Shown here one piece after another: positions 2,233 to 23,183 of a stretch of 64,000 nt of DNA. The notes beneath the pieces were generated by a model. It made no database searches. It worked only from the letters and a program-made list of their open reading frames with translations, and was not told the DNA's origin. A program made the translations under genes and the position numbers. The DNA comes from Nocardia sp. BSTN01 (GTDB taxonomy: Bacteria > Actinomycetota > Actinomycetes > Mycobacteriales > Mycobacteriaceae): NCBI RefSeq assembly GCF_015354405.1, contig NZ_JADKYP010000011.1, forward strand, positions 1 to 64,000, written 5' to 3'. The stretch's first letter is position 1. Each line of letters begins with the position of its first letter.

Positions 2233-4542
2233 GTGTCCGTGTATCTGTATCGGTGGGGAAGATTCGCCTTCCGGCACAAGTGGATCGTGCTCCCGGTCTG
2301 GCTCATCCTGTTCGTGCTCATCGGCAGTCTGGGCACGCAGCTGAAGAAGCCGATGAACGACGACTTCACGATTCCGAATCTGCCGTCGGAACGCGCCACC
2401 GAGATCATGGACAAACACTTTCCGGGGATGTCGGAGGCGTTCAGTTTCGACGCGGTGACCGGCACCTATGTCTTCGGGGCGGCACCGGGACAGAAACTCA
2501 CCGACGCATCCCAGCGGGCGGCCGTCGCGGGGACGGTCACGAAGCTGAACGATCTGAACATCGTCGATCACAAGACTCCACTGGTCGATCCGATCACCGC
2601 CACCGAACAAATGGGGTGCTTCGCGCCCGATCGCAGTTCGCCGGAATTCGTCTCGCGCTGCAGTGCCGCGCCGGTGAACGTCCTGAACAAGGAGAATCCG
2701 GATACCGTTGCGGTGCTGACCGTTCCGTTCACGATTCAGAAGTTCACCGATATCACCGCCGACGATCGCGCGGCCGCGTTCGCGGTCGGTGACGATGCGC
2801 GCGCCGCCGGACTACAGGTGGAGATGAGCGGGTCACTGGCGATGGAACAACAGCAGCCCAGTGGGCAGGCCGAGATGATCGGCATGGCCGTGGCGCTGGT
2901 GGTGATGGTGGTGGCCTTCGGCGCGATCGTGGCCGCCTTCGTGCCGATCATCACCGCGATCGTCGGACTCGGATTGGCGACCTCGGTGATCTTCCTCGGC
3001 ACGTCGTTCATGTCGGTTCCGAGTTTCACGACCTTCCTGGCCTCGATGATCGGCATCGCGCTCTCGATCGACTACGCGCTGTTCATCGTCTCGCGTTACA
3101 AACACGAACGCGCCGTGCAGAGTTCGCCGGAGATCGCCGCCGGCACGGCGCTGGGGACGGCCGGTTCGGCGGTGGTGTTCGCGGGCGCGACGGTGATCAT
3201 CGCACTGGTCGCCCTGGCCATCGTGAACATCCGCTTCCTGACCTTCATGGGTCTGGGCGGGGCGATCGCGGCGGCGTTCGCGGTGCTCACCGCCATCACC
3301 CTGATGCCGGCACTGCTCGGCGCCTTCGGCAAGTACCTGTTCGAGCCGAAGCTGCCGGTGATCGCGCAACACGATCCCGAGGACGATTCGGTGGTCACCA
3401 ACGGTATGCGGATGGCGCGGATGATCGGGCGAATGCCGTGGCTGACGCTGGTCGCGAGCATCATCGTGCTGGGTCTGCTGGCCGCGCCCGCGCTGAGCTT
3501 GAATCTGGGCCTGCCCGGTGAGGACAGCCAGCCCAGGACCACCACGATTCGCAAGGCCTACGACCTGCGCACCGAGGGATTCGGTGCCGGCAGTAACGGC
3601 AAGCTGCAGGTCGTCGCCGACCTGTCGCAGGTGCGTGCCGATCAGCGTCAGGCCGCGCTCACCGCACTGCACGACGAATTGGCCGCGTATCCGGGTATGG
3701 ATTACGTGACCCAGCCGCAGCCGAGCAGGGACGGCGCGGGCGCGTTGATGACCGCCGTACCCACCACCGGACCCAATGATCAGGCCACCAAGGATCTGGT
3801 TCGCCATGCCCGCGACGCCGAATCCGCACTGCACGACCGATACGGCATCGAATACGGAATCACCGGCACCACAGCCATTTACGCGGACGTCGACCATGCG
3901 CTGCTCAGTAAGATCCTGCCCTATCTGGCCATCGTGGCGGGTGCGGCATTCCTGTTGCTTATCGCGGTATTCCGTTCGGTGCTGGTGCCTTTCACCGCCG
4001 CACTGGGATTCCTGCTCTCCATGGCGGCGACGTTCGGCGCCACCGTGCTGATCTTCCAGAAGGGTGCGCTGGGCCTCATCTCCGAACCCCGGCCGATCGT
4101 GAGCTTCCTGCCGATCATGTTGATCGGCTTGGTCTTCGGCCTCGCCATGGACTACCAGGTCTTCCTGGTCACCCGCATGCGCGAGGAATACGTGCACGGG
4201 AAATCACCCACCGACGCGATGATCTCCGGCTACCACCATGGCGCGCGCGTGGTGACCTCGGCCGCCGTCATCATGATCTCGGTCTTCGGTTCGTTCCTGC
4301 TGGAATCGGATGCGACGGCCAAGTCGATGGGTTTCGCGCTCGCCGCGGGCGTGCTGTTCGACGCCTTCCTGGTGCGGATGGTCCTGATTCCGTCGCTGCT
4401 GGTACTGATGGGCCGGGCGGCCTGGTGGCTGCCGGGGTGGCTCAGCCGGATCGTGCCGGATATCGACGTGGAGGGTGCGCGGTTGCGCGAGCTCCACGTC
4501 GACGATCCGGACGAGCCCAGGAGTCCGGTGAAGGTCGGCTGA
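2233..4542 (+). CDS. MMPL family transporter, complete
   Basis: Full-length 769-residue MMPL/RND exporter of the inner membrane. GTG start with AGGAG at 2222-2226. TM1 is about residues 15-35; a periplasmic domain follows; TM2-6 run to about residue 345; a second periplasmic domain follows; TM7-12 end near 735. Proton-relay Asp-Tyr pairs are seen at about Asp280 and Asp640. It is a close paralogue of the gene just upstream (long identical blocks around both DY motifs and in the tail), separated by a hairpin and 257 bases. The two are convergent with the PKS-side gene cluster. MMPL proteins often export lipids made by neighbouring PKSs in mycolata; that substrate link is inferred here, not shown. 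Confidence 0.95.
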   Translation: MSVYLYRWGRFAFRHKWIVLPVWLILFVLIGSLGTQLKKPMNDDFTIPNLPSERATEIMDKHFPGMSEAFSFDAVTGTYVFGAAPGQKLTDASQRAAVAGTVTKLNDLNIVDHKTPLVDPITATEQMGCFAPDRSSPEFVSRCSAAPVNVLNKENPDTVAVLTVPFTIQKFTDITADDRAAAFAVGDDARAAGLQVEMSGSLAMEQQQPSGQAEMIGMAVALVVMVVAFGAIVAAFVPIITAIVGLGLATSVIFLGTSFMSVPSFTTFLASMIGIALSIDYALFIVSRYKHERAVQSSPEIAAGTALGTAGSAVVFAGATVIIALVALAIVNIRFLTFMGLGGAIAAAFAVLTAITLMPALLGAFGKYLFEPKLPVIAQHDPEDDSVVTNGMRMARMIGRMPWLTLVASIIVLGLLAAPALSLNLGLPGEDSQPRTTTIRKAYDLRTEGFGAGSNGKLQVVADLSQVRADQRQAALTALHDELAAYPGMDYVTQPQPSRDGAGALMTAVPTTGPNDQATKDLVRHARDAESALHDRYGIEYGITGTTAIYADVDHALLSKILPYLAIVAGAAFLLLIAVFRSVLVPFTAALGFLLSMAATFGATVLIFQKGALGLISEPRPIVSFLPIMLIGLVFGLAMDYQVFLVTRMREEYVHGKSPTDAMISGYHHGARVVTSAAVIMISVFGSFLLESDATAKSMGFALAAGVLFDAFLVRMVLIPSLLVLMGRAAWWLPGWLSRIVPDIDVEGARLRELHVDDPDEPRSPVKVG

Positions 4543-4571: not shown

Positions 4572-5507
4572 TCAGCCGAGCTGGGCGGCGACCTCGGCGG
4601 CGACCAATTCCAGGTGATCGAGATCGGACAGATCCAGTACCTGCAGGTAGAGCCGGGTGATGCCGGTGGTCTCGCGGTAGCGGCCGATCTTGTCGACCAC
4701 CTCCGCGGGGGTGCCGGCCAGGCCGTTGGTGCGCAGTTCGTGCACCTCGCGGCCGATCGCCTCGGCGCGGCGGGCGATCTCGGCCTCGTCACGGCCGACG
4801 CACAGCACCTGCGCGGCCGAGCGCACGATCTCACCGGGATCGCGGCCGATGTCGCGGGCCGCCGCGGCGACCCGATCGAATTGCGCCGCAGCCGTTTCCG
4901 CATCCGTGAACGGCAGGTTGAACTCGTGCGCGTACCGCGCGGCCAGAGCCGGTGTGCGTTTCTTGCCGGCACCGCCGATGATCACCGGCGGGCCCGGCTG
5001 CTGCACCGGCTTGGGCAGGGCCGGACTGCCCTGCAGCACATAGTGTTTGCCCGTGAAATCGAAGGTCTCCCCCACTGGCGTCTGCCACAGGCCGGTGATG
5101 ATCGCCAGTTGCTCGGCGTAGCGGTCGAAGCGCTCACCGAGATCCGGCAGATCGATGCCGTAGGCGCGATGCTCGTCGGCGAACCAGCCCGAACCGAGCC
5201 CGAGCTCGACCCGGCCGCCGGACATCTGGTCGACCTGGGCGACCGAGATCGCCAGCACCGAGGGATGCCGGAACGTCGCCGCGGTGACCAGGGTGCCCAG
5301 CCGGATCCGGGACGTCTCGCGCGCGAGCCCGGCCAGCGTGATCCACGCGTCGGTCGGCCCCGGCAGACCGGACACCCCGCCCATCTTCAGATAGTGATCG
5401 GACCGGAAGAATGCGTCGAACCCCGCCTCCTCGGTCACCTTCGCAACCCGGAGCAGATCGTCGTAGGTAGCCCCCTGCTGGGGCTCGGTGAAGATTCGTA
5501 GTTCCAC
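4572..5507 (-). CDS. LLM-class F420-dependent oxidoreductase
   Basis: Luciferase-like monooxygenase TIM-barrel enzyme of about 311 residues, of the group that uses the deazaflavin F420. Visible signatures include AFFRSDHYLKMG near residue 36, RIRLGTLVTAATFRHP, the GGRVELGLGSGW block that contacts the cofactor phosphate, and GTPAEVVDKIGRY near the C terminus. The start is set at GTG 5507 because the family begins (M/V)ELRIFTEPQQGATYDDLL; an in-frame start at 5534 would add nine residues without similarity. It lies 184 bases downstream of the oxoamine synthase on the same strand, so it may be co-transcribed with that operon and reduce a ketone or other intermediate. That role is inference; the substrate cannot be read from sequence. 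Confidence 0.88.
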   Translation of the reverse strand: MELRIFTEPQQGATYDDLLRVAKVTEEAGFDAFFRSDHYLKMGGVSGLPGPTDAWITLAGLARETSRIRLGTLVTAATFRHPSVLAISVAQVDQMSGGRVELGLGSGWFADEHRAYGIDLPDLGERFDRYAEQLAIITGLWQTPVGETFDFTGKHYVLQGSPALPKPVQQPGPPVIIGGAGKKRTPALAARYAHEFNLPFTDAETAAAQFDRVAAAARDIGRDPGEIVRSAAQVLCVGRDEAEIARRAEAIGREVHELRTNGLAGTPAEVVDKIGRYRETTGITRLYLQVLDLSDLDHLELVAAEVAAQLG

Positions 5508-5691
5508 GAGCACCAACGTACCGGGCCACGACATGCCGATTCACCGGCACGCCCGGGCTCCGGCGCCTGCCCACGCTCGGCCTCGAGCCCCGACACCGCC
5601 GGCTGTGCCACCCTTCGGTACCTGCCGAACCGCCCGGCGAGAGAACCAGGCATGTCGCACAGCTCCCTCGCGCGGCGGTCGGCCGCGTATG

Positions 5692-7089
5692 TCAGCCGGT
5701 GACGCTCAGGTCCGGCAACTGCGCGGCACCGGCGATGGCCTCCGACAGCAGATCGGCGGCGGCCTCCAGCTGGGCGGGTTCGTGTTCGGAGGTCAGGAAG
5801 AAGCGCAGGCGTTCCTGACCGGCGGGCACGGCCGGTGACGAGATCGCGCCCGCGTAGACGCCGTTGCGCAGCAGCGTCGTGGCGACGTAACCGGCGCGCA
5901 GTTCGCCGGGGACGATCACCGGGCAGATCGGGGTGCCTTCGGAGATGCCGAGGTCGATGCCGCGTTCGCCGAGCAGGGTGCGGAAGTGCTCGGCGTTGGA
6001 CCACAGCCGGCGCAGTCGCTGCGGTTCGGCCTCGAGGACGTCGAGTGCGGCCAGCGCGGCACCGATGGTCGAGGGTGCGGGGCCGCCGGTCAGCATGGCC
6101 ACACCCGGCGCGGCGGCCTTCATCGCGGCGATCAGGTCCGCGTCGGCGGCGATGAAACCGCCGCAGCTGCCCAATGCCTTCGACAGGGTGCCCATCCAGA
6201 TGTCGACCGCGTCGCCGGGCATCCCGTAGTGCTCGCGGATCCCGTGGCCGCGCTCTCCGAAGACGCCGAGGGAATGCGCCTCGTCGACCATGACGGCGCA
6301 GTCGAATTCCCGTGCGATGGCGGCTATTTCGCTCACCCGGCCGACCGTGCCGTCCATGCTGTAATGACCTTCGACGACGACCAGCGCCCGATCGAAGCTC
6401 CCGCGCGACATGCGCAACACCGAACGCAGCGACTCCGGATCGTTGTGGCGGAAGTTGAGCCGCCGCGCTCCCGACCACTGCACCCCGGAGATCACGCTGC
6501 CGTGGATGAGCGAATCGCAGATCGCGACGTCGTCGGCGCCCAGCAGGAAGCCGATCACCCCGGCGTTGGTGAGATAGCCGCTGGTCGTGACCATCGCGTC
6601 GCCGACGTCGTACATCGCGGCCAGGCGCTGTTCGAGTTCGGCGTAGATCGGGATCTCCCCGGCGACGATGCGGCTGGCCGAGGCGGAGGCGCCATAGGTG
6701 TCCAGCGCGTCCTTGGCCGCCTGCACCACCTTCGGATGGTTGCCCAGGCCGAGATAGTTGTAGGCGCTGAAATTCACCAGATCCCGGCCCTGCCACCGAA
6801 TCACGGTGTCGTTCGGGCTCTCTCGCACGAGAAACATCGGATTGGGTGTGCCGCTGTGCTCGTGCACCGCCGCGATCGCCGCCCGCTTCTGCACCATCGC
6901 CGCGACCTCGGGGTGGTCGGCGAATTGGCGTCCGGGGCCGCGGCGTGGGCGGGCCGGTTTGGTGTGGGCGGCCGCGAACGTAGCGCTCGGGCCACCGGAC
7001 GTCACGGGAGTAGACGCCGGCGCAGCGGTGCCGCCGGATATCGTGCCGGACAACAACTTCCGCGCCAGCTCCCGCGCCGACTCACTCAT
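5692..7089 (-). CDS. Alpha-oxoamine synthase (PLP, KAPA-synthase-like) beside PKS
   Basis: Fold-type I PLP enzyme of 465 residues in the alpha-oxoamine synthase family (BioF, glycine C-acetyltransferase, serine palmitoyltransferase), which decarboxylatively joins an amino acid to an acyl thioester. Motifs: NFSAYNYLGLGNHP near residue 105, ASRIVAGEIPIYAELE, VVVEGHYSMDGTVG, VMVDEAHSLGVFG, and the PLP Schiff-base Lys304 in GTLSKALGSCGG. It is about 75 residues longer than BioF because of an N-terminal extension. The start is 39 bases after the PKS stop, so it is in the same operon. No biotin genes are adjacent, which argues against a bioF role. The likely job is chain release from the thioesterase-less PKS as an alpha-aminoketone, comparable to Fum8 with Fum1 in fumonisin synthesis. 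The amino acid used is unknown. Confidence 0.88.
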   Translation of the reverse strand: MSESARELARKLLSGTISGGTAAPASTPVTSGGPSATFAAAHTKPARPRRGPGRQFADHPEVAAMVQKRAAIAAVHEHSGTPNPMFLVRESPNDTVIRWQGRDLVNFSAYNYLGLGNHPKVVQAAKDALDTYGASASASRIVAGEIPIYAELEQRLAAMYDVGDAMVTTSGYLTNAGVIGFLLGADDVAICDSLIHGSVISGVQWSGARRLNFRHNDPESLRSVLRMSRGSFDRALVVVEGHYSMDGTVGRVSEIAAIAREFDCAVMVDEAHSLGVFGERGHGIREHYGMPGDAVDIWMGTLSKALGSCGGFIAADADLIAAMKAAAPGVAMLTGGPAPSTIGAALAALDVLEAEPQRLRRLWSNAEHFRTLLGERGIDLGISEGTPICPVIVPGELRAGYVATTLLRNGVYAGAISSPAVPAGQERLRFFLTSEHEPAQLEAAADLLSEAIAGAAQLPDLSVTG

Positions 7090-7128
7090 CCCGCATCCTT
7101 TCCGGCGCAGCGGACGGCTGCGGCCTTC

Positions 7129-10100
7129 TCATCCCGTCGCCCCCTGCACGATCGCCTCGGCCACCCGCGCACCCGCTTGTTCGAGGCTGAACGAGCGGCC
7201 CATCTTCATCGACATCAGTTCCACGCCCAGCGATTTCGTCACCAGCGCACCGAATTCCACGGCCATCAGCGAGTCCAATCCGAGTTCGGGCACCGGAACC
7301 GTCAGGTCGATCGAGTCCGCGGAGACGCCCATGACCTGCGCCAATTGCTCGGCCAGCATGAAGGCGACGACCTCGTTGCGCTTGCCCTCGTCGAGTTCGG
7401 CGAGTTGGACGCGCAGCCGTGCGGCGGCCGAATCGTCCTGTGCCGCAGCGGCGATCAGTTCCTTCGTGCGCCCGGTCTGGGCGAAGAACGGCGCAGTGGC
7501 GTTCACCTTCGCCCAATCGACCGGAATGATCGAGGCCTGCGTGACGCCCAAGCGCAGCGCCTGCTCCAGATATTCGGTCCCCTCGTCCATGGTGATCGAA
7601 TCGAAGCCGGTGTTGCGCAGATATCGCGCGATGTGCTCGTCGTCGGCCATACCGCCACCGGACATATGACCCCAGCCGACGACCAATGCGGTGCCGCCAT
7701 CGCGGATCACCGAATCCCCGATCGCCTGCAGCGCGATATTGGCTGCGGTATACGCGTATTGGCCGACACCGCCGAACATCGCACTACCGGAGGACCACAG
7801 CGCGAACTGAGCCGGCCGCGCCCCGGCTGCCTGTATACCGGCGACGAGTGCGCGCGCACCGTCGGCCTTCGCCCGGAACACCTTTGCCAGACTCTCGGCA
7901 TCCATGACGGTGATGCGCTTGTCGTCGATGGCGCCCGCGGTGTGGAACACCCCGCGCAGCGGATGCTCGGGCCGGTGGGCGCGAGCGACGACCGCCGCCA
8001 CGGCATCGGCATCGGTGATGTCGACCCGCTCGATGGTGACCTCGATGCCCTGGGCCTGCCAGGCCGCCAGCTGCGCGACGGCGGCCTCGGTGGTGGCGCC
8101 GCCGCGGCCGAGCAACGTCAACCGGCGGGCGCCGTGGCCCACCAGCCATCGCCCGGTGGCCAGGCCGAAGGCGCCGAAACCGCCGGTGATCAGGTACTGG
8201 GCCGCGGGATCGATCTCGATCTCGGGCAGCTGCGGACGGACCAGCGGTCGGTCCTCGGTCAGATCCAGCGCGACGCGGCCGATCCGGGTCGAGCGGGCCA
8301 CTTCCTCGAAGGCCTGAGCGACCTCGGCGGTTCCGTACTTCTGGAACGGCAGCGGACGATAGGTGCCGTCGTCGAAGCTGGCGTTGACCTTGCGGCCCAG
8401 GGCCATCACCTCGGTGTGCCGCAACCGCAGCATCCGGTCCAGATCGAAGGAGAAGTAGGAGACGTTCTTGTCGAACGCGGACAGATCCAGCATGCCGCCG
8501 GTGTAGATATCGGCCTTGCCGATCTCCACGATGCGGCCGAATTCGGCGATCACCGCGAAGTTCTGGCGCAGGATCTCTCCCGGCGCGGAGCTGATGATCA
8601 CGTCCACGCCGCGGCCGCCGGTGAGGGCGAGCACCTCGTCGACGAAGGTGAGCGACCGCGATCCGACCGCGTGATCGGCGCCCTCGGCCAGGACGTAGGC
8701 GCGCCGCTGTTCGCTGCTCGCGGTCCCGATCACGGTGGCGCCGTGCAACTTCGCGATCTGTACCGCCGCGCTGCCGACGCCACCCGCCGCACCGTGCACC
8801 AGCACGGTCTCACCGGCCCGGATCCGCGCGAGTTCGAGCAGCGAGTATTCGGCGGTGGTGAAGGCCGTGACGCTGCTGCACCGTCCCGCGTCGGTGTCGG
8901 GGTGGACGTGGGTGAGCGAATCGGTCGAGGTGGTGTGGTAGCGCGCGACCATGCCCTTGGAGGTCAGGCTCACCGCGTCGCCGGGAGCGTAGTCGGTGAC
9001 GCCGGGACCGACCCGGACCACCTCGCCGCCGCCTTCCATACCCGGCACCAGGCCGAAGAAGGTCTCCGACAGTTCACGTTCACCGAGGACGCCGATCACC
9101 TTCAGCGCGTCCTTGTAGTTGAGGCCCACGGCACGCATCCGGACCTCGACCTCGCCCAGACCGGGTTCGCGCCGCTCGCAGCGCCGCCAGCCCAGCCGCG
9201 CGAAGGTGCGTGAACGGGGCAGTTCCAGTTCGAAATTCGCCTCGGGGTCGGTGAGCGGTTCGGCGGTGTCGAGAGCGTCGAGCCGCTCGGGCAGCGTTCG
9301 GGTCACGACGGTGGTCCAGCGCAGGCCGTTGCGCAACACGGCCTCGTCGACCAGGTCGTATTGGAAGCCACCGGGGATCGCCAGTTCCGCGGACAGGTCC
9401 GCGACCGTCGTGTCGGCATCGATATCGACCAGTCGCCAGCGCAGGCGGGACTGTTCGTTGAGCAGCACACGACGAGCGCCGGCGATCGCCGCCTGGCTGG
9501 GATCCGGCGCCGTCTCGTCCGCGGGATGGGCGTACGCGTGGGCGCTGACCACGGTCGCGAACAGCGAGCCGTCGCCGGTCAGCGGAATCTCGATCTCGTG
9601 CTCGGTGACCCGCTCCTCGAGATAGCCGTCCAGCGTCACCGCGATCCGGCGCAACGTCCACAGCGCGGCCACATCACCGTCGGGTGCGTGCCCGGGGACC
9701 ACGCACACGTGCAGCCGTCGCACGTCCTCGTCGCCGAAGATGTCGCGAAGCCGTTGTGCCAGTTGCGGTTCCAGCTCCGTGTCGGCCGGGTCCAGCAGGA
9801 GGACGGCCGAGCCGGCTCCGCCGGCGACCGCGTCGCGCACCCGCTCGATCCGCGAGTCGATGTTCTCGCCGTAGCCGAGGACCAAGGTGTAGAGGTCGGC
9901 GTTCTGGGGGAGTGCGGTCGTGTCGACCGGATCGCGCAACTCCCACCGTTCCTCGTAGAACATGTCGGTCATGCGCTGCAGTGGGCCGCGGCCCGGAGTC
10001 AGGGATCCGAATTCGATCCCCCTGATCTGCATGACCACCGTGCGTTCGGCGTCGAGCAGATCGATATCGGCCAGCGGCCGGTCGCCCTCGGTGAACCGGG

Positions 10101-13100
10101 CCACGGCGGTGACCTCGACCGGCAGCGGCGCCAGGCGGCGCACGGTGCGCACGCCGACCGGCACCATCGCGCCCTCCTGGGCGCCACCGCGCCCGGCGAG
10201 CAGCGCGGCCACACTCTGCAACGCCGCATCGACGATCGCGGGGTGGGCGAGGTACCGCTCCCCCTGGCCGATGGTGCCGTCGAGTTGTGCGACCACGGTG
10301 TCCGGCGAGATCCGGATCGCGGTGGCGCGCTGGAAGGTCGGGCCGTATTCCAGTCCGCGCGCGGCCAATCCGGCGTAGAACTCGGCGGGATCGACCGCGA
10401 GCATATGCTCGACATCGGGCACGTCCGCGGTGATCGGGGCGTAGCTGCCTTCGACCAGGCGACCGAGCGCGTGCACGGTCCAGATGGTGCCGGCCGCGCC
10501 CCGGGAACGGATGGTGAAGCGCCCGGTCGAATCCTCCACGTGGAGTTCGACGATCGGCGCCTCGCCCTCCTCGACGACCAGCGGCGCGACGAACCGCACG
10601 CCTTCCACGGCCACCTGATCCGATTCGGTGCGCACCGCGGCGGCGCTCAGCGCGGCATCCAGATATCCCGCGCCGGGCAGGATCCGGGTGCCGCCCACGA
10701 CGTGATCGGCGAGCCACGGTAGCGCCGCGAGCGACAATTCCACCCGCCAGGCGTTGGAATCGTCGGGATGCTGATCACCGAGCATCGGGTGCGCGTCGGG
10801 CGTGCCGTGGCGCAGCAGCCGGAATTCCGGCAGTTCGTTGCGCAGCCGGGTGCGCTGCCACGGATAACGCGGCAGATCGATATGCGGTGTCGGATCCGCC
10901 ACTCCCGCGAACAGCGCGTCGATGTCGAGAACTCCGGCCGCGTACAGCCCGGACAGGGTCTGGCGCAGGCTGTCGGCGTCCTGCTGTTTGCGGTGCAGGG
11001 TCGCCACCGTCGTCCCGGTTTCGCCCGCGCCGATGAGGATCTCGCGAATATTGGCGCCGAGCACCGGATGCGGGCCGACCTCGACGAACACCCGGTTGCC
11101 GGAGCGGACCAGCGCGGTGATCGCATCGGCGAACCGCACCGGCTGCCGCACGTTCGCGCACCAGTAGTCGGCATTCCAGTCGGCCGTGGTGACCTGTTCG
11201 CCGGTGACCGTGGAGTACAGCGGGATGCGCGGTTCCGAGACGGTGAGCCCGGCCAGCACCGCACGCAGTTCGTCCAGGATCGGATCCATCAGATGACTGT
11301 GGTAGGGCACCTCGACCTGGAGCCGGCGCGCGAAAATACCGTCGGCGGTGAGCTTTTCGGCGATCTCGTCGAGGCGGTCGGCCGCACCGGCCAGCGTGAC
11401 GGCCGAGGGTGAGTTGATCGCCGCGATGTCGACCGAACTGTCGGCGGCGATGACCTCGCGCGCCGCCTCGGCGGGCAATCCGATCGCCAGCATGCCGCCC
11501 GTGCCGGCCGTCGTGGCCTGCAACCGGGCACGGTGGTAGCTCACCAGCAGCGCGTCGCGCAGCGACAGCATTCCGGTCACGTAGGCGGCCGAGACCTCAC
11601 CGACGCTGTGACCGACGACGACGGCGGGTTCGATGCCGTATTCCCGCAGCGCCGCGTACAGCGCGACCTGGACCAGGAAGTTCGCCGGTTGCGCGACGGC
11701 GGTCGAGGTGACCCTCGACTCCGCTTCGGGCCGCAGCAACTCCTCGACGACGGACCAGCCCGCGATGTCGGTGAACACGGCGTCGATGCGGCGGGCCTCG
11801 GCGGCGAAAGCAGTGTCGGTGGTGAGCAATTCGCGCGCCATACCCCACCACTGCGGGCCCATACCGGTGAAGACGTACACCGGCTCGGCGGTGCGCTTGG
11901 CGACGGTGCGACCGACTCGGCCCTGACCGTTGGCCAAGTCCACCAGGCCCCGGACCAGTTCGGTGTCGTCACCGAAGGTGATCGCGGCGCGATGGTTGTG
12001 GTGATTGCGGCGCCGCCACGCGGCCTCGGCCAACCGGCCGGGGTCGGCGCCCTCGGCGATCAGTTCGGCGACGCCGCGAGCCAGTTGCCGAACCGCTGTC
12101 TCGTTTCGCGCGGAGAGCGGCAGTACACCGAAATGTTCTGGCGCCCGGCTGGTTTCGGGAGCGCCGGCATACTCCTGCAGAATCGCGTGCGCATTGGTGC
12201 CGCCGTATCCGAAACCGTTGACGGCCACCGTCATGCGCTCGACCTCGGGGCCGACCGGTTCGGCCTCGGTCTGGAGGCGAATTCCCAGTTCCTCGAACGG
12301 GATATCGGGATTGGGAGTGTCCAGCCAGCCCTGCGGTGCGATGGTGCGGTGGGTGATGGCCAGCGCCGATTTGATGACGCTCGCGATACCCGACGCGGCT
12401 TCGGTGTGCCCCAGCGTCGCCTTCACCGAGCCGACGCCGACCGGGCCCGGCCGACCGGTGGCGGCGCCGTAGGCCCGGCCGATGGCTCGCAGTTCCAGCG
12501 GGTCGCCCACCGGCGTTCCGGTGCCGTGCGCCTCCACGTAGGTGATCTCGTGCGCCGGGATTCCGGAGCGCTCGATCACGGTCCTGGCCAGCGCTTCCTG
12601 GGAATCGGCATTCGGCACCGTGATGGCCGTGGTGCGGCCGTCCTGATTCGATCCGGTGGCCTTGACCACCGCGTAGATACGGTCGCCGTCGCGTTCGGCA
12701 TCGGCGAGCTTCTTCAGCACCACGATGCCGGCGCCCTCGCCCCGGCCGTACCCGTCGGCGGCGGCGTCGAACGGTTTGCTGCGCCCGTCGGCGGCGAGGA
12801 ATCCCCCCTTGCACATGGAGACGAACGGCTCCGGCTGCGCCATCACGGTCACGCCGCCGGCCAGCGCGTATTCGCAGTCTCCGCTCTCGATGGCCTGGCA
12901 GGCCAGATGCAGGGCGACCAGCGACGAGGAACAGGCCGTGTCGACGGTGACCGCCGGGCCGGTCAGGTTGAGCGCGTAGGCGATCCGGTTCGAGAGCATG
13001 GTGTACGACGCGCCGGCGGCGGTGTGCATGTCGACATGCGGCAGCGCCGGTCCACCCACCGATACCGCCAGCTGATCGAGGGTGAAGGCGCCGATGTAGA

Positions 13101-13455
13101 CGCCGAGCCCCGAACCGGCGCTGCGTCCGGCGACACCCGCGTCGTCGAGCGCCTCCCACACCACTTCCAGGACGAGTCGCTGCTGCGGGTCCATGGCGGC
13201 CGCCTCGCGCGGGGAGATGCCGAAGAAGTCGGGATCGAACTCCCACGGATCGCCGGTCATGAAGGCGGCGCGCTTGGTGTACATCCGGCCGGGGGTGCGG
13301 CGGTCGGCGTCGTAGTAGCGCCGCCAATCCCAGCGGTCGGCCGGGATCTCGGTGACTCCGTCCCGTTTGTTGATCACGAAATCCCAGAAGGACTCCGGCG
13401 AATCGATACCGCCGGCGTACCGGCATCCGATTCCGACGATGGCAATGTCAGACAC
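7129..13455 (-). CDS. Type I polyketide synthase, single fully reducing module without thioesterase
   Basis: 2108-residue multidomain enzyme with order KS-AT-DH-linker-ER-KR-ACP. KS (1-425) has Cys175 in DTACSSS, His310 in EAHGTGT and His350 in KATLGHTEA. AT (about 525-830) has Ser617 in GHSVGE and YHSH at the extender-selecting site instead of HAFH or YASH. DH (885-1165) has His918 in HVVGGTRILP and Asp1076 in HPAIVDAAL. A roughly 260-residue linker, possibly KR structural subdomain, precedes ER (1435-1740, LVHGAAGGVGSAAVQIAK). KR (1750-1960) has ITGGFGAFG, Tyr1902 and Asn1906. ACP has Ser2062 in LGLDSLM. No methyltransferase or thioesterase is present. GTG start with GAGGAG about 6 bases upstream. 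All reductive domains keep their catalytic residues, so a saturated chain is expected, probably built iteratively; release most likely uses the adjacent oxoamine synthase. Confidence 0.96.
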   Translation of the reverse strand: MSDIAIVGIGCRYAGGIDSPESFWDFVINKRDGVTEIPADRWDWRRYYDADRRTPGRMYTKRAAFMTGDPWEFDPDFFGISPREAAAMDPQQRLVLEVVWEALDDAGVAGRSAGSGLGVYIGAFTLDQLAVSVGGPALPHVDMHTAAGASYTMLSNRIAYALNLTGPAVTVDTACSSSLVALHLACQAIESGDCEYALAGGVTVMAQPEPFVSMCKGGFLAADGRSKPFDAAADGYGRGEGAGIVVLKKLADAERDGDRIYAVVKATGSNQDGRTTAITVPNADSQEALARTVIERSGIPAHEITYVEAHGTGTPVGDPLELRAIGRAYGAATGRPGPVGVGSVKATLGHTEAASGIASVIKSALAITHRTIAPQGWLDTPNPDIPFEELGIRLQTEAEPVGPEVERMTVAVNGFGYGGTNAHAILQEYAGAPETSRAPEHFGVLPLSARNETAVRQLARGVAELIAEGADPGRLAEAAWRRRNHHNHRAAITFGDDTELVRGLVDLANGQGRVGRTVAKRTAEPVYVFTGMGPQWWGMARELLTTDTAFAAEARRIDAVFTDIAGWSVVEELLRPEAESRVTSTAVAQPANFLVQVALYAALREYGIEPAVVVGHSVGEVSAAYVTGMLSLRDALLVSYHRARLQATTAGTGGMLAIGLPAEAAREVIAADSSVDIAAINSPSAVTLAGAADRLDEIAEKLTADGIFARRLQVEVPYHSHLMDPILDELRAVLAGLTVSEPRIPLYSTVTGEQVTTADWNADYWCANVRQPVRFADAITALVRSGNRVFVEVGPHPVLGANIREILIGAGETGTTVATLHRKQQDADSLRQTLSGLYAAGVLDIDALFAGVADPTPHIDLPRYPWQRTRLRNELPEFRLLRHGTPDAHPMLGDQHPDDSNAWRVELSLAALPWLADHVVGGTRILPGAGYLDAALSAAAVRTESDQVAVEGVRFVAPLVVEEGEAPIVELHVEDSTGRFTIRSRGAAGTIWTVHALGRLVEGSYAPITADVPDVEHMLAVDPAEFYAGLAARGLEYGPTFQRATAIRISPDTVVAQLDGTIGQGERYLAHPAIVDAALQSVAALLAGRGGAQEGAMVPVGVRTVRRLAPLPVEVTAVARFTEGDRPLADIDLLDAERTVVMQIRGIEFGSLTPGRGPLQRMTDMFYEERWELRDPVDTTALPQNADLYTLVLGYGENIDSRIERVRDAVAGGAGSAVLLLDPADTELEPQLAQRLRDIFGDEDVRRLHVCVVPGHAPDGDVAALWTLRRIAVTLDGYLEERVTEHEIEIPLTGDGSLFATVVSAHAYAHPADETAPDPSQAAIAGARRVLLNEQSRLRWRLVDIDADTTVADLSAELAIPGGFQYDLVDEAVLRNGLRWTTVVTRTLPERLDALDTAEPLTDPEANFELELPRSRTFARLGWRRCERREPGLGEVEVRMRAVGLNYKDALKVIGVLGERELSETFFGLVPGMEGGGEVVRVGPGVTDYAPGDAVSLTSKGMVARYHTTSTDSLTHVHPDTDAGRCSSVTAFTTAEYSLLELARIRAGETVLVHGAAGGVGSAAVQIAKLHGATVIGTASSEQRRAYVLAEGADHAVGSRSLTFVDEVLALTGGRGVDVIISSAPGEILRQNFAVIAEFGRIVEIGKADIYTGGMLDLSAFDKNVSYFSFDLDRMLRLRHTEVMALGRKVNASFDDGTYRPLPFQKYGTAEVAQAFEEVARSTRIGRVALDLTEDRPLVRPQLPEIEIDPAAQYLITGGFGAFGLATGRWLVGHGARRLTLLGRGGATTEAAVAQLAAWQAQGIEVTIERVDITDADAVAAVVARAHRPEHPLRGVFHTAGAIDDKRITVMDAESLAKVFRAKADGARALVAGIQAAGARPAQFALWSSGSAMFGGVGQYAYTAANIALQAIGDSVIRDGGTALVVGWGHMSGGGMADDEHIARYLRNTGFDSITMDEGTEYLEQALRLGVTQASIIPVDWAKVNATAPFFAQTGRTKELIAAAAQDDSAAARLRVQLAELDEGKRNEVVAFMLAEQLAQVMGVSADSIDLTVPVPELGLDSLMAVEFGALVTKSLGVELMSMKMGRSFSLEQAGARVAEAIVQGATG

Positions 13456-13490
13456 AGCGACTCCTCGGCCGACTCGAAAATTCCCGCTGA

Positions 13491-14111
13491 TCAGAGCGGA
13501 CGCGGTCGGCGAATCATGATGTTCATTTCCGGACCCGTCCTGCCCAGCTGGACGGACCCGGTGCGTTCGTTACCCAGGGCCTCGTAGTAGCCGACGTTCT
13601 CGTCCTTGCAGATTCCGCACAGGAGTACGCCCTGCCGGTCGGCCTTGTCGGTGAACGACGCGTACAGCGCGCGACCGACGCCGCTGCGCTGCAGTGTCGG
13701 ATCGGTTCCGAGGTAGACGTGGAACAGATGGGGTTCGGCCGGTGCCGCCCGATCCATGGTCCGGTCGACCTCGGTTCCCCTTCCCACGGCGGTGCCCATT
13801 CCCGCGAGAAACAGTGGGCCCGCGAGGAATTCGCGTAGCCCACCGGGCCGGTAACCGTCGGGGTACCAGAGCAGGGCGCCGACGATGCGGCCGTCCAGCT
13901 CCGCCACCTCGGCGCCACCGGCCGGTAGGAAGCGATGTTCGATCATGGTCCGCAACATCCGCGGCGCCCGCCGGTGCCGGACGGTTTCGTCCGGAAAGAC
14001 GTATTCCTCGATCGGATCGTCGTGCGCGAAGGCCGCGGCCAGTACCCGCACCATTCCGGTGATGTCGTCGCGCGTCGCGGTCCGCACGACCGGACTCCCG
14101 GTTTTGCTCAA
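13491..14111 (-). CDS. GNAT family N-acetyltransferase, first gene of PKS operon
   Basis: 206-residue GNAT-fold protein. The acetyl-CoA pyrophosphate loop is visible at residues 141-146 (QRSGVG) after beta-strand 4 (HLFHVYLGTDPTL), with motif B around YYEALGNERTG. The start is TTG (SKTGSP follows), with GAGGG upstream. It lies 35 bases upstream of the PKS start on the same strand and begins the three-gene operon. GNAT enzymes acetylate amines or act as small-molecule acyltransferases. With a downstream oxoamine synthase expected to make an aminoketone, N-acetylation of that product (or self-protection) is a sensible hypothesis, but the sequence does not show the substrate. Confidence 0.85.
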   Translation of the reverse strand: MSKTGSPVVRTATRDDITGMVRVLAAAFAHDDPIEEYVFPDETVRHRRAPRMLRTMIEHRFLPAGGAEVAELDGRIVGALLWYPDGYRPGGLREFLAGPLFLAGMGTAVGRGTEVDRTMDRAAPAEPHLFHVYLGTDPTLQRSGVGRALYASFTDKADRQGVLLCGICKDENVGYYEALGNERTGSVQLGRTGPEMNIMIRRPRPL

Positions 14112-21998: not shown

Positions 21999-23183
21999 GT
22001 GAACAACACGCGGATGGTCGGGTTGTTCGCCGGGATCGGGGGGCTGGAACTCGGGCTCAGCGCCCATGGTTGGCATACCGAGCTGCTCTGCGAGATCGAC
22101 CCCGGTGCTCGCGCGGTCCTGTCCGCCCGCTTTCCCGAGGTCGAAACCCACGCCGATGTCACCCGCCTGCGCGCACTACCAGCCGGAACCGAATTGGTGG
22201 CGGCCGGATTTCCGTGCCAGGACCTCTCGCAAGCGGGACGGACGGCGGGGATCACCGGCGCGCGTTCGGGTCTGGTCGACGAGGTGTTCCGGCTGGTTCG
22301 CCGCAAACGCGGTCCGCGCTGGCTGCTGATCGAGAACGTCCCGTTCATGTTGCAGCTGGGGCGCGGGCAGGCGATGCGGCACATCACGGCCGCGTTGGAG
22401 GAGCTGGGCTACACCTGGGCCTACCGAGTGGTCGACGCGCGCGCGTTCGGGCTACCGCAGCGGCGGCAGCGGGTGCTGATGCTGGCGTCGCGGTCGGAGG
22501 ATCCGCGGCCGGTGCTGTTCGGAACCGATGCGGGACCGCGCACGATCGGCGATCCCGAGGTGGATCCGTGCGGCTTCTACTGGACCGAGGGAGTGCGCGG
22601 ACTGGGCTGGGCGGTGAATGCGGTGCCGACGTTGAAGGGCGGGTCCGGACTCGGTATCGCCAGCCCGCCCGCGGTCCGATTGCCCGCAGGTGAGATCGTC
22701 ACTCCCGGAATCACCGACGCCGAACGGCTGCAAGGCTTTTCCCACGATTGGACCGCGCCCGCACTGGCCGCAGCGGGGGTCCGTCCGGGACACCGGTGGA
22801 AGCTGGTCGGCAATGCGGTGAGTGTGCGGATGGCGTCGTGGATCGGATCCCGCCTGGCCGCACCCGCCGACGGGGTGGCCGCGGAGTACGCGCCCCTGAC
22901 CGCGCACCGCTGGCCGGCGGCGGCGTGGGGCCATGCCGGTAAGGCCTATCGAGTCCCGGTGTCGACGTGGCCGGTGCACGAGCCGTACGAGGATCTGCGC
23001 TGGTTCCTCGACGATGCCCGCCTGCTGTCGGCCCGCGCGACCGCCGGTTTCCTGCGCCGCGCCGCGCGCGGCACACTGCGTTTCCCGCCCGGCTTCCTCA
23101 CCGATATGGAGAACCACCTGATCCGCATGGGAGGTCTGCCGCGGGAGGGTGCGGGTGTCACATACGTCTCGGCGGCGGTGTGA
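21999..23183 (+). CDS. C5-cytosine DNA methyltransferase
   Basis: 394-residue DNA (cytosine-5)-methyltransferase. SAM-binding motif I FAGIGGLELGL lies at residues 10-20, catalytic motif IV GFPCQDLS has Cys73, motif VI is IENVPF, motif VIII LPQRRQRV, and motif X includes LVGNAVSVRMASWIG near residue 275. The target-recognition region is about 170-240, and a C-terminal extension of roughly 110 residues of unknown role follows (VPVSTWPVHEPYEDLRWFL). GTG start with GAAAGGA about 10 bases upstream. A Vsr gene follows, but no restriction endonuclease or specificity subunit is visible, so it looks like an orphan methyltransferase. The recognition sequence cannot be deduced. Confidence 0.94.
   Translation: MNNTRMVGLFAGIGGLELGLSAHGWHTELLCEIDPGARAVLSARFPEVETHADVTRLRALPAGTELVAAGFPCQDLSQAGRTAGITGARSGLVDEVFRLVRRKRGPRWLLIENVPFMLQLGRGQAMRHITAALEELGYTWAYRVVDARAFGLPQRRQRVLMLASRSEDPRPVLFGTDAGPRTIGDPEVDPCGFYWTEGVRGLGWAVNAVPTLKGGSGLGIASPPAVRLPAGEIVTPGITDAERLQGFSHDWTAPALAAAGVRPGHRWKLVGNAVSVRMASWIGSRLAAPADGVAAEYAPLTAHRWPAAAWGHAGKAYRVPVSTWPVHEPYEDLRWFLDDARLLSARATAGFLRRAARGTLRFPPGFLTDMENHLIRMGGLPREGAGVTYVSAAV

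Follow-up and report, generated by a model that had tools for sequence, protein, structure and literature searches.

Fum1 and Fum8 of fungi are a known case in which a reducing polyketide synthase (PKS) has its chain released by an alpha-oxoamine synthase (AOS); Fum1 contains a methyltransferase domain and the amino acid used is alanine. Among bacteria, SgaA and SgaB of Pseudomonas fluorescens MYb115 make sphinganines, and purified SgaB condenses acyl-CoA with serine, used almost exclusively, as stated in PMC12134224; in the same source 6,101 homologous Sga clusters were counted in NR, and Nocardia may be among them. The lipid of the rkp system is thought to carry or anchor the capsule, according to PMC3557214 and PMC3908369. 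In this work we analysed a stretch of 64,000 nucleotides of Nocardia sp. BSTN01 (hereafter the window), corresponding to the first 64 kb of contig C13 in a genome of 7.79 Mb, in which the genes for a GNAT-family acetyltransferase (GNAT), a PKS and an AOS follow one another on the minus strand. We predict from the sequence that the product of this operon is probably an N-acylated alpha-aminoketone (sphingoid-like) lipid. Two observations are new here: free-standing AOSs carry a conserved N-terminal helix that is absent from fused ones, and in N. terrae a modular PKS encoded next to the PKS-AOS pair ends in this GNAT.

With SgaA/SgaB the Nocardia locus would share a one-module iterative PKS and an AOS that frees the chain by decarboxylative condensation. 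The SgaAB pair (2025) proves this PKS-AOS logic in bacteria, and the Nocardia form differs from it in the lineage of the PKS, in the GNAT and in the helix. The Sga system also has a presumed reductase, SgaC, whereas the Nocardia triad is without a ketone reductase; a reductase is found elsewhere, as a short-chain dehydrogenase/reductase (SDR) in the type II loci described below and as an alcohol dehydrogenase in some Mycobacterium loci. The comparison covered PKSs from a Pseudomonas plasmid and from rhizobia: these are 33-37% identical to the window PKS in the best local match over its first half, and they lie on another branch of the ketosynthase (KS) tree, in which the window PKS is separate from the proteobacterial (SgaA/RkpA-like) branch, with long branches flagged. 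The plasmid pair resembles SgaA/SgaB, and its AOS groups in one clade with the Nocardia AOS. As regards rkp/wcb, the loci of Sinorhizobium and Shinella, which we take for rkp, contain a PKS-like gene, an AOS (43-45% identical to the Nocardia AOS) and an SDR, in this order, beside capsule genes, and this agrees with the account of rkp in PMC3557214; here the SDR stands in place of the GNAT.

The original prediction had regarded Fum1/Fum8 as the nearest precedent, a place that belongs to SgaA/SgaB, bacterial and proven (PMC12134224); the order PKS-AOS-SDR was also seen in the Sinorhizobium locus that we take for rkp. Its statement that no characterised Nocardia product is known for this gene set was borne out by a literature search, which found none, and by a 2025 survey that reports no Nocardia cluster deposited in the PKS-I category of MIBiG (PMC12153302). 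Literature joining "oxoamine synthase" with Nocardia, or joining sphinganine, polyketide, N-acetyl and Nocardia, was not found in a search that left most subscription papers outside.

All three open frames were found at the expected places, with gaps of 35 bases between GNAT and PKS and 39 bases between PKS and AOS, as originally described. The domains identified by Pfam agree with a one-module PKS, and Pfam found no thioesterase in it. The active-site motifs of its domains are intact (DTACSSS at residue 172, GHSVG at 615, HxxxGxxxxP at 918, GAAGGVG at 1555, YTAAN at 1902 and GLDSL at 2059). To compare the locus with its relatives we considered a first set of 60 related genomes, for which the neighbourhoods were fetched, genes were called by a codon-usage script and proteins were clustered. 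In this set the order GNAT-PKS-AOS was constant and the flanks were variable. The arrangement is not due to chance, because relatives have these genes in an unchanged order although their flanks differ; GNAT, PKS and AOS form a unit. The nearest relatives of the window belong to the nova-like Nocardia group, and identity of the AOS is 93-97% for N. aobensis, N. cerradoensis (where it is split into two parts on separate contigs), N. kruczakiae, N. mikamii, N. africana, N. elegans and N. nova.

For the genus survey, 250 genomes were requested and 151 were examined; the resulting counts take in related species, and no probability of independent events is claimed for them. The AOS clade was present, at E up to 1e-100, in 85 genomes. 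Co-conservation of the three genes had been proposed as a test, and the GNAT was in fact 6.3-7.0 kb upstream of the AOS on the same strand at 52 of 59 AOS places (at least 55% identity, fragments included). Counted per genome, both genes were found in 53, only the AOS in 3, only the GNAT in 1 and neither in 94. The triad stays linked in roughly a third of the Nocardia species covered. As for the seven AOS places without an upstream GNAT, two are split by contig ends (G002, G013), one lies at a contig start, with the GNAT and the start of the PKS at the end of another contig (G163), and one is near a contig end (G136); in two the GNAT is displaced and fused to a PKS (G161, G028), and in one no GNAT was found in the survey (G130). 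Conversely, 8 of 60 GNAT places were unpaired, including G002 and G013 (contig ends), the fused G161 and three GNATs next to the end of a PKS on contigs that are short or broken (G099 with two, G163 with one).

To look beyond the genus we used the AOS alignment to scan 84,980 species genomes, which gave 78 loci, 65 with an AOS at least 44% identical and 13 under 44%. Among the 65, the order was GNAT-PKS-AOS in 38 and PKS-AOS-GNAT in 3 (two Mycobacterium strains and one actinobacterial metagenome-assembled genome, MAG), and 11 belonged to the set that we call type II. Seven further loci had no GNAT in the fetched stretch (one of them is N. terrae, in which the GNAT is further away and fused to a PKS), two had it elsewhere or too far away for our rule, two were cut by contig ends and two failed the PKS-adjacency rule (contig edge or partial match). 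The 13 loci under 44% showed no match to the window PKS or GNAT in the fetched stretches. In a second genus of the same family, both fetched loci consist of PKS-AOS followed by MMPL and GNAT genes on the same strand, with an opposite-strand gene in between in one of them, and at 7/7 Mycobacterium PKS-AOS loci there was an MMPL match in the fetched stretch. GNAT and MMPL thus recur as partners in altered gene orders, and the linkage of the GNAT survives rearrangement, because it follows the AOS in two Mycobacterium strains and the MAG and the MMPL gene in the second genus. An order-wide search (348 genomes, E 1e-30) gave a GNAT match in 23, of which 17 were outside Nocardia at 36-44% identity; PKS-AOS is among the neighbours of the GNAT in both of the 2 examined among these 17. 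A phylum-wide AOS search (396 genomes, E 1e-80) retrieved only the source genome, one other Nocardia and one genome of another family (40-43%).

The AOS keeps the residues that bind pyridoxal 5'-phosphate (PLP) and the carboxylate. Precisely, H196, D269, H272, K304 and R429, corresponding to the catalytic His, Asp, His, Lys and Arg of serine palmitoyltransferase (SPT), were invariant in 23/23 aligned AOSs, which also upheld the assignment of Lys304 as the PLP-binding lysine. SPT was the best match among solved proteins (256 bits); next, at about 239 bits, came a dual BioF/ketobutyrate-ligase enzyme together with 2-amino-3-ketobutyrate ligases, and a mycobacterial BioF scored 162. The family PKS directly precedes the AOS at 63 of the 65 near-relative loci; of the other two, one is at a contig edge (L111) and in one the PKS score came from a partial match (L137). 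In a tree made by a quick method, with Pseudomonas and rhizobial AOSs included, all PKS-linked AOSs, standalone or fused and actinobacterial or proteobacterial, formed one clade of 42 rows (99 SH-aLRT) apart from BioF. With the AOS in the PKS-linked clade, SPT nearest and the catalytic residues complete, release of the PKS chain by the AOS as an alpha-aminoketone, as originally suggested, remains the best reading. As regards the amino acid, the column equated with Thr83 of ALAS holds Ser in 18/23, Val in 4/23 and Thr in 1/23. Where SPT has Asn53, the aligned residue is Tyr in 17/23 and Phe in 6/23, and Tyr at this site occurs in some SPTs, according to PMC9304779. The same source gives Lys281 as a mark of cysteate enzymes; at the site of Lys281 of the cysteate acyl-ACP transferase SulA, placed by eye from the SPT alignment, the 23 AOSs have G, A, V or T and never K, and the two neighbouring columns are also free of K.

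Free-standing AOSs open with a short helix that follows the pattern R-x-(L,I,M,V)-A-(R,S)-x-L-L, followed by a linker of variable length. R6, A9 and L12 are invariant in 20/20 free-standing actinobacterial AOSs, and Arg6 is kept in 20/23 after adding three proteobacterial rows, which go without it. The AlphaFold2 model of the window AOS has the helix and the low-confidence linker given in Table 1 and a well modelled core. A first pattern for the helix matched 57/64 near relatives and 7/1560 random stretches; after reading the 7 misses, i.e. with the answer in view, we widened it, and it then matched 64/64 near relatives, 0/12 distant AOSs, 0/5 AOSs fused behind an acyl carrier protein (ACP) and 4/1560 random stretches, L111 and L153 being left out of the count as their match began past residue 120. 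We read the helix, on sequence and model, as a proposed docking element to the PKS that fusion would make unnecessary.

The domains, catalytic residues, linkage and lineage are read in the sequence; from them we infer how the pathway would run, including the iterative action of the PKS, the docking, the sequence of reactions, the acyl donor, the amino acid used and the export. The PKS, acting iteratively and probably with malonyl-CoA, would assemble a saturated acyl chain while holding it on its own ACP. The AOS would dock on this thioesterase-free PKS by its short N-terminal helix on a flexible tether, take the acyl group from the ACP and condense it with a PLP-bound amino acid, with loss of CO2, to give a long-chain 2-amino-3-ketone; serine is the likeliest amino acid, and alanine or glycine are possible. 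The GNAT would then acylate the free amine, most simply from acetyl-CoA, and this N-acylation would also keep the reactive aminoketone from pairing with itself. Export of the product would probably be by an MMPL transporter.

Table 1. Positions in the window of the triad, of parts of its proteins and of neighbouring genes (KS, ketosynthase; AT, acyltransferase; DH, dehydratase; ER, enoylreductase; KR, ketoreductase; aa, amino acids).
Feature	Positions	Strand	Remarks
AOS gene	5692-7089	minus	465 aa, ATG start; Aminotran_1_2 (Pfam)
PKS gene, KS-AT-DH-ER-KR-ACP, one module, fully reducing	7129-13455	minus	2108 aa, GTG start; Pfam
GNAT gene	13491-14111	minus	206 aa, TTG start; Acetyltransf_1 (Pfam)
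AT domain of the PKS	10954-11880	minus	GHSVG and VPYH; predicted malonyl-CoA extender
C-terminal ACP of the PKS	7210-7356	minus	PP-binding (Pfam), GLDSL; proposed chain carrier to the AOS
N-terminal helix of the AOS, residues 5-14	7048-7077	minus	proposed docking element to the PKS
AOS linker between helix and core, flexible, length-variable	6943-7047	minus	pLDDT <50 at residues 15-45; alignment
F420-type LLM oxidoreductase, downstream	4572-5534	minus	NCBIfam TIGR03560 over cut-off
MMPL-family transporter, possible lipid exporter	2233-4542	plus	Pfam MMPL
Second MMPL-family transporter, cut by contig edge	74-1975	plus	Pfam MMPL

Several results weigh against this pathway. The triad contains no ketone reductase. 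The AOS reaches no NCBIfam cut-off and scores alike for bioF (315 bits) and SPT (302 bits); precisely, its scores against the SPT models were 302, 279 and 220 bits, for cut-offs of 640, 500 and 670, respectively. Among solved proteins the 256 bits of SPT are close to the 239 of the dual BioF/ketobutyrate-ligase enzyme, and in the fold comparison SPT and 2-amino-3-ketobutyrate ligase are nearly tied, with SPT ahead by about 1 Z unit. Taken by itself, the AT domain is closest to the AT of tylactone synthase and not to that of mycocerosic acid synthase (MAS). As for the GNAT, it was found within 20 kb in 0/35 type II AOS places (about 48-53% identity), it is missing from the PKS-AOS of N. puris and from five Mycobacterium loci, and two unpaired GNATs of 45-46% identity (G150, G107) have no PKS or AOS match within stretches of 20 kb. 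Since type II, the five Mycobacterium loci and N. puris go without it, the GNAT is not required by the whole family.

On sequence and fold, the simplest role to predict for the GNAT is that it N-acetylates the amine. Its nearest solved protein, by both measures, is puromycin N-acetyltransferase (AlphaFold2 model with mean pLDDT 89.5; Foldseek E 1.6e-15, 28% identity), and it carries QRSGVG at the usual CoA-binding loop. A different role is suggested by N. terrae (G161, L165-L167), in which three modular PKS genes come after PKS-AOS, the middle one seen only through tblastn matches. The last of these PKSs has the domains KS-AT-DH-KR-ACP and, at about residues 1808-2000, this GNAT as its final domain, with no thioesterase found by Pfam. 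Because the first of the three opens with AT-ACP, the second chain seems to be separately started. A comparable ACP-GNAT fusion occurs in N. crassostreae, where the reading frame of the GNAT is interrupted in the assembly used. Placed at the end of an assembly line and next to an amine-forming pathway, the GNAT may join chain and amine, i.e. place an acyl chain (in N. terrae a modular polyketide ending in ACP-GNAT) on the amine of the PKS-AOS aminoketone, which we hold to be possible though unlikely. In the same way the window GNAT could, as an N-acyltransferase, take a long acyl chain or a polyketide chain from ACP or CoA and give a ceramide-like amide instead of an N-acetyl group; this too we regard with doubt, as the nearest relatives by sequence and fold use acetyl-CoA, the fused domain of N. 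terrae keeps the QxxGxG loop, suiting CoA, and the fusion cases are only 2. Literature on chain release by a GNAT was searched for, and nothing useful turned up. If a chain-joining GNAT were true, N. terrae would make a ceramide analogue entirely by polyketide enzymes, with the GNAT in the place of the thioesterase, and the Nocardia triad would be the minimal form.

The relation to puromycin N-acetyltransferase, the closest solved relative, also admits self-protection, in which a toxic free aminoketone would be N-acetylated as puromycin is, the acetyl group not being part of the final structure; the predicted substrate of the Nocardia GNAT is, however, another. We consider this rather unlikely, because the GNAT is usually the first gene of the predicted operon and is fused to a PKS in N. 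terrae, which suits biosynthesis better, although the two readings overlap.

The PKS is by sequence nearest the MAS/Pks2 kind: its nearest solved protein is MAS (residues 2-2082), and the Pks2 model matches it over the full length (1061 bits, for a cut-off of 2400). With the MAS and Pks2-PapA-MmpL systems it shares domain order and the full-length match, and Nocardia paralogues of it have PapA-like and MMPL partners; it differs in the AT motif, VPYH and not VASH, and in having an AOS instead of PapA. VPYH and GHSVG occur in every listed PKS of our protein family 0, whether AOS-linked or PapA-linked, compared with VASH/GHSMG in MAS and YASH/GHSQG in DEBS. A bulky residue at this AT site points to malonyl-CoA, in line with a passage on the motif IAFH in PMC3908369, and so to an unbranched chain.

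Full-length paralogues of the PKS (61-64% identity) were found in 21/36 genus genomes, with six candidates scored per genome, and one of them is in the source genome. A PapA-like gene was a neighbour at 8/9 fetched loci, several of which also lie near MMPL, MFS or esterase genes, and no AOS was found beside the paralogues at these 9 loci. In the KS tree, made by a quick method with long branches flagged and leaving their exact place unsure, the PapA-linked PKSs lie among the AOS-linked ones, and because of this nesting release partners have probably been exchanged at least once. One could then suppose that the chain of the window PKS is freed otherwise, by ester formation of the PapA type as in the paralogues, and that the AOS acts on a different acyl-CoA. 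We find this improbable: the triad is without a PapA-like gene, the helix is on free-standing AOSs and not on fused ones, and for 14 of 24 listed pairs the gene caller gives a 4-base overlap between PKS and AOS, the window itself having the 39-base gap. The PapA partners of the paralogous PKSs start differently. In the source genome the paralogue (61%) at G000:C99 (L061) lies with PapA-like, MMPL and MFS genes in a MAS/Pks2-like lipid locus.

That the AOS is instead the 8-amino-7-oxononanoate synthase of the biotin pathway or a glycine-specific ligase, near a PKS by chance, is largely refuted and very improbable: bioF (TIGR00858) is its top NCBIfam hit by bits, but its 315 bits are below the curated cut-off of 426, a better match of the same genome (392 bits, also below 426) sits on C185 beside a dethiobiotin-synthetase-like (BioD-like) gene, which makes a biotin role unlikely, and the AOS is in the PKS-linked clade and regularly preceded by the PKS. 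A biotin role, which the original prediction had named as one finding that would overturn it, was accordingly rejected on the TIGR00858 scores within the genome, the neighbours and the tree placement outside BioF.

Among the genes next to the triad, the first MMPL gene is incomplete because the window starts at contig base 1. The LLM oxidoreductase and MMPL neighbours are common only to the two nearest loci of the 60-genome set; we considered them as core genes and rejected them, since close copies adjoin the triad only in the nearest relatives. The LLM oxidoreductase is a possible accessory of the nova-like group only, outside the core unit.

Other arrangements with an AOS were seen in Nocardia. 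Type II clusters (L039-L044, e.g. L039:3853-18508) contain UnbV/ASPIC, RnfD-like, DUF1702, SnoaL-like, TetR and SDR genes, the RnfD-like match lying below the Pfam cut-off; UnbV/ASPIC, RnfD-like and DUF1702 genes are common in enediyne clusters. A third type (L045-L048) combines an AMP-ligase and a free ACP with a KS-AT-ACP-AOS fusion, 1429-1526 aa long, whose AT motif is HAFH. At L054 and L057 the AOS is near a PPDK/PEP-utiliser, a cytochrome P450, an AMP-ligase-family gene and a nucleotidyltransferase-like gene, and in N. puris (L141 / L169) the genes after PKS-AOS encode a cyclopropane-synthase-like methyltransferase and a protein of the small multidrug-resistance type. The two unpaired GNATs without PKS or AOS match, at L173:12001-12594 (G107) and L172:10792-11385 (G150), are possibly remnants.

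Outside Nocardia, PKS-AOS without GNAT and with MMPL was seen in Mycobacterium simulans, M. szulgai, M. gordonae, M. attenuatum and a MAG (L120, L121, L123, L124, L126), where an extra partner is a leucine-carboxyl-methyltransferase-like gene or an alcohol dehydrogenase, with a flavin monooxygenase also at L123; Pfam was run on L120, L121, L123 and L126 only. In Pseudomonas sp. TMW 2.1634 (L157) the PKS-AOS pair is on a mobilizable plasmid, and genes on the opposite strand are annotated as GNAT, SDR, LTA synthase and capsule proteins. Elsewhere in the window, the frame at 21999-23183 reads by eye like a DNA cytosine methyltransferase (GLFAGIGGLELG, GFPCQDLSQAG).

If release by the AOS followed by N-acylation is right, an aminoketone lipid pathway would be present in over half of the sampled Nocardia genomes (the 85 of 151 with the AOS clade) and in some mycobacteria, where it would sit under generic PKS and biotin-like annotations. 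The helix would be a testable handle on how an AOS finds its PKS. The varied partners of PKS-AOS, i.e. GNAT, SDR, alcohol dehydrogenase, MMPL and modular PKS, would form a natural set in which to follow the evolution of AOS release and tailoring.

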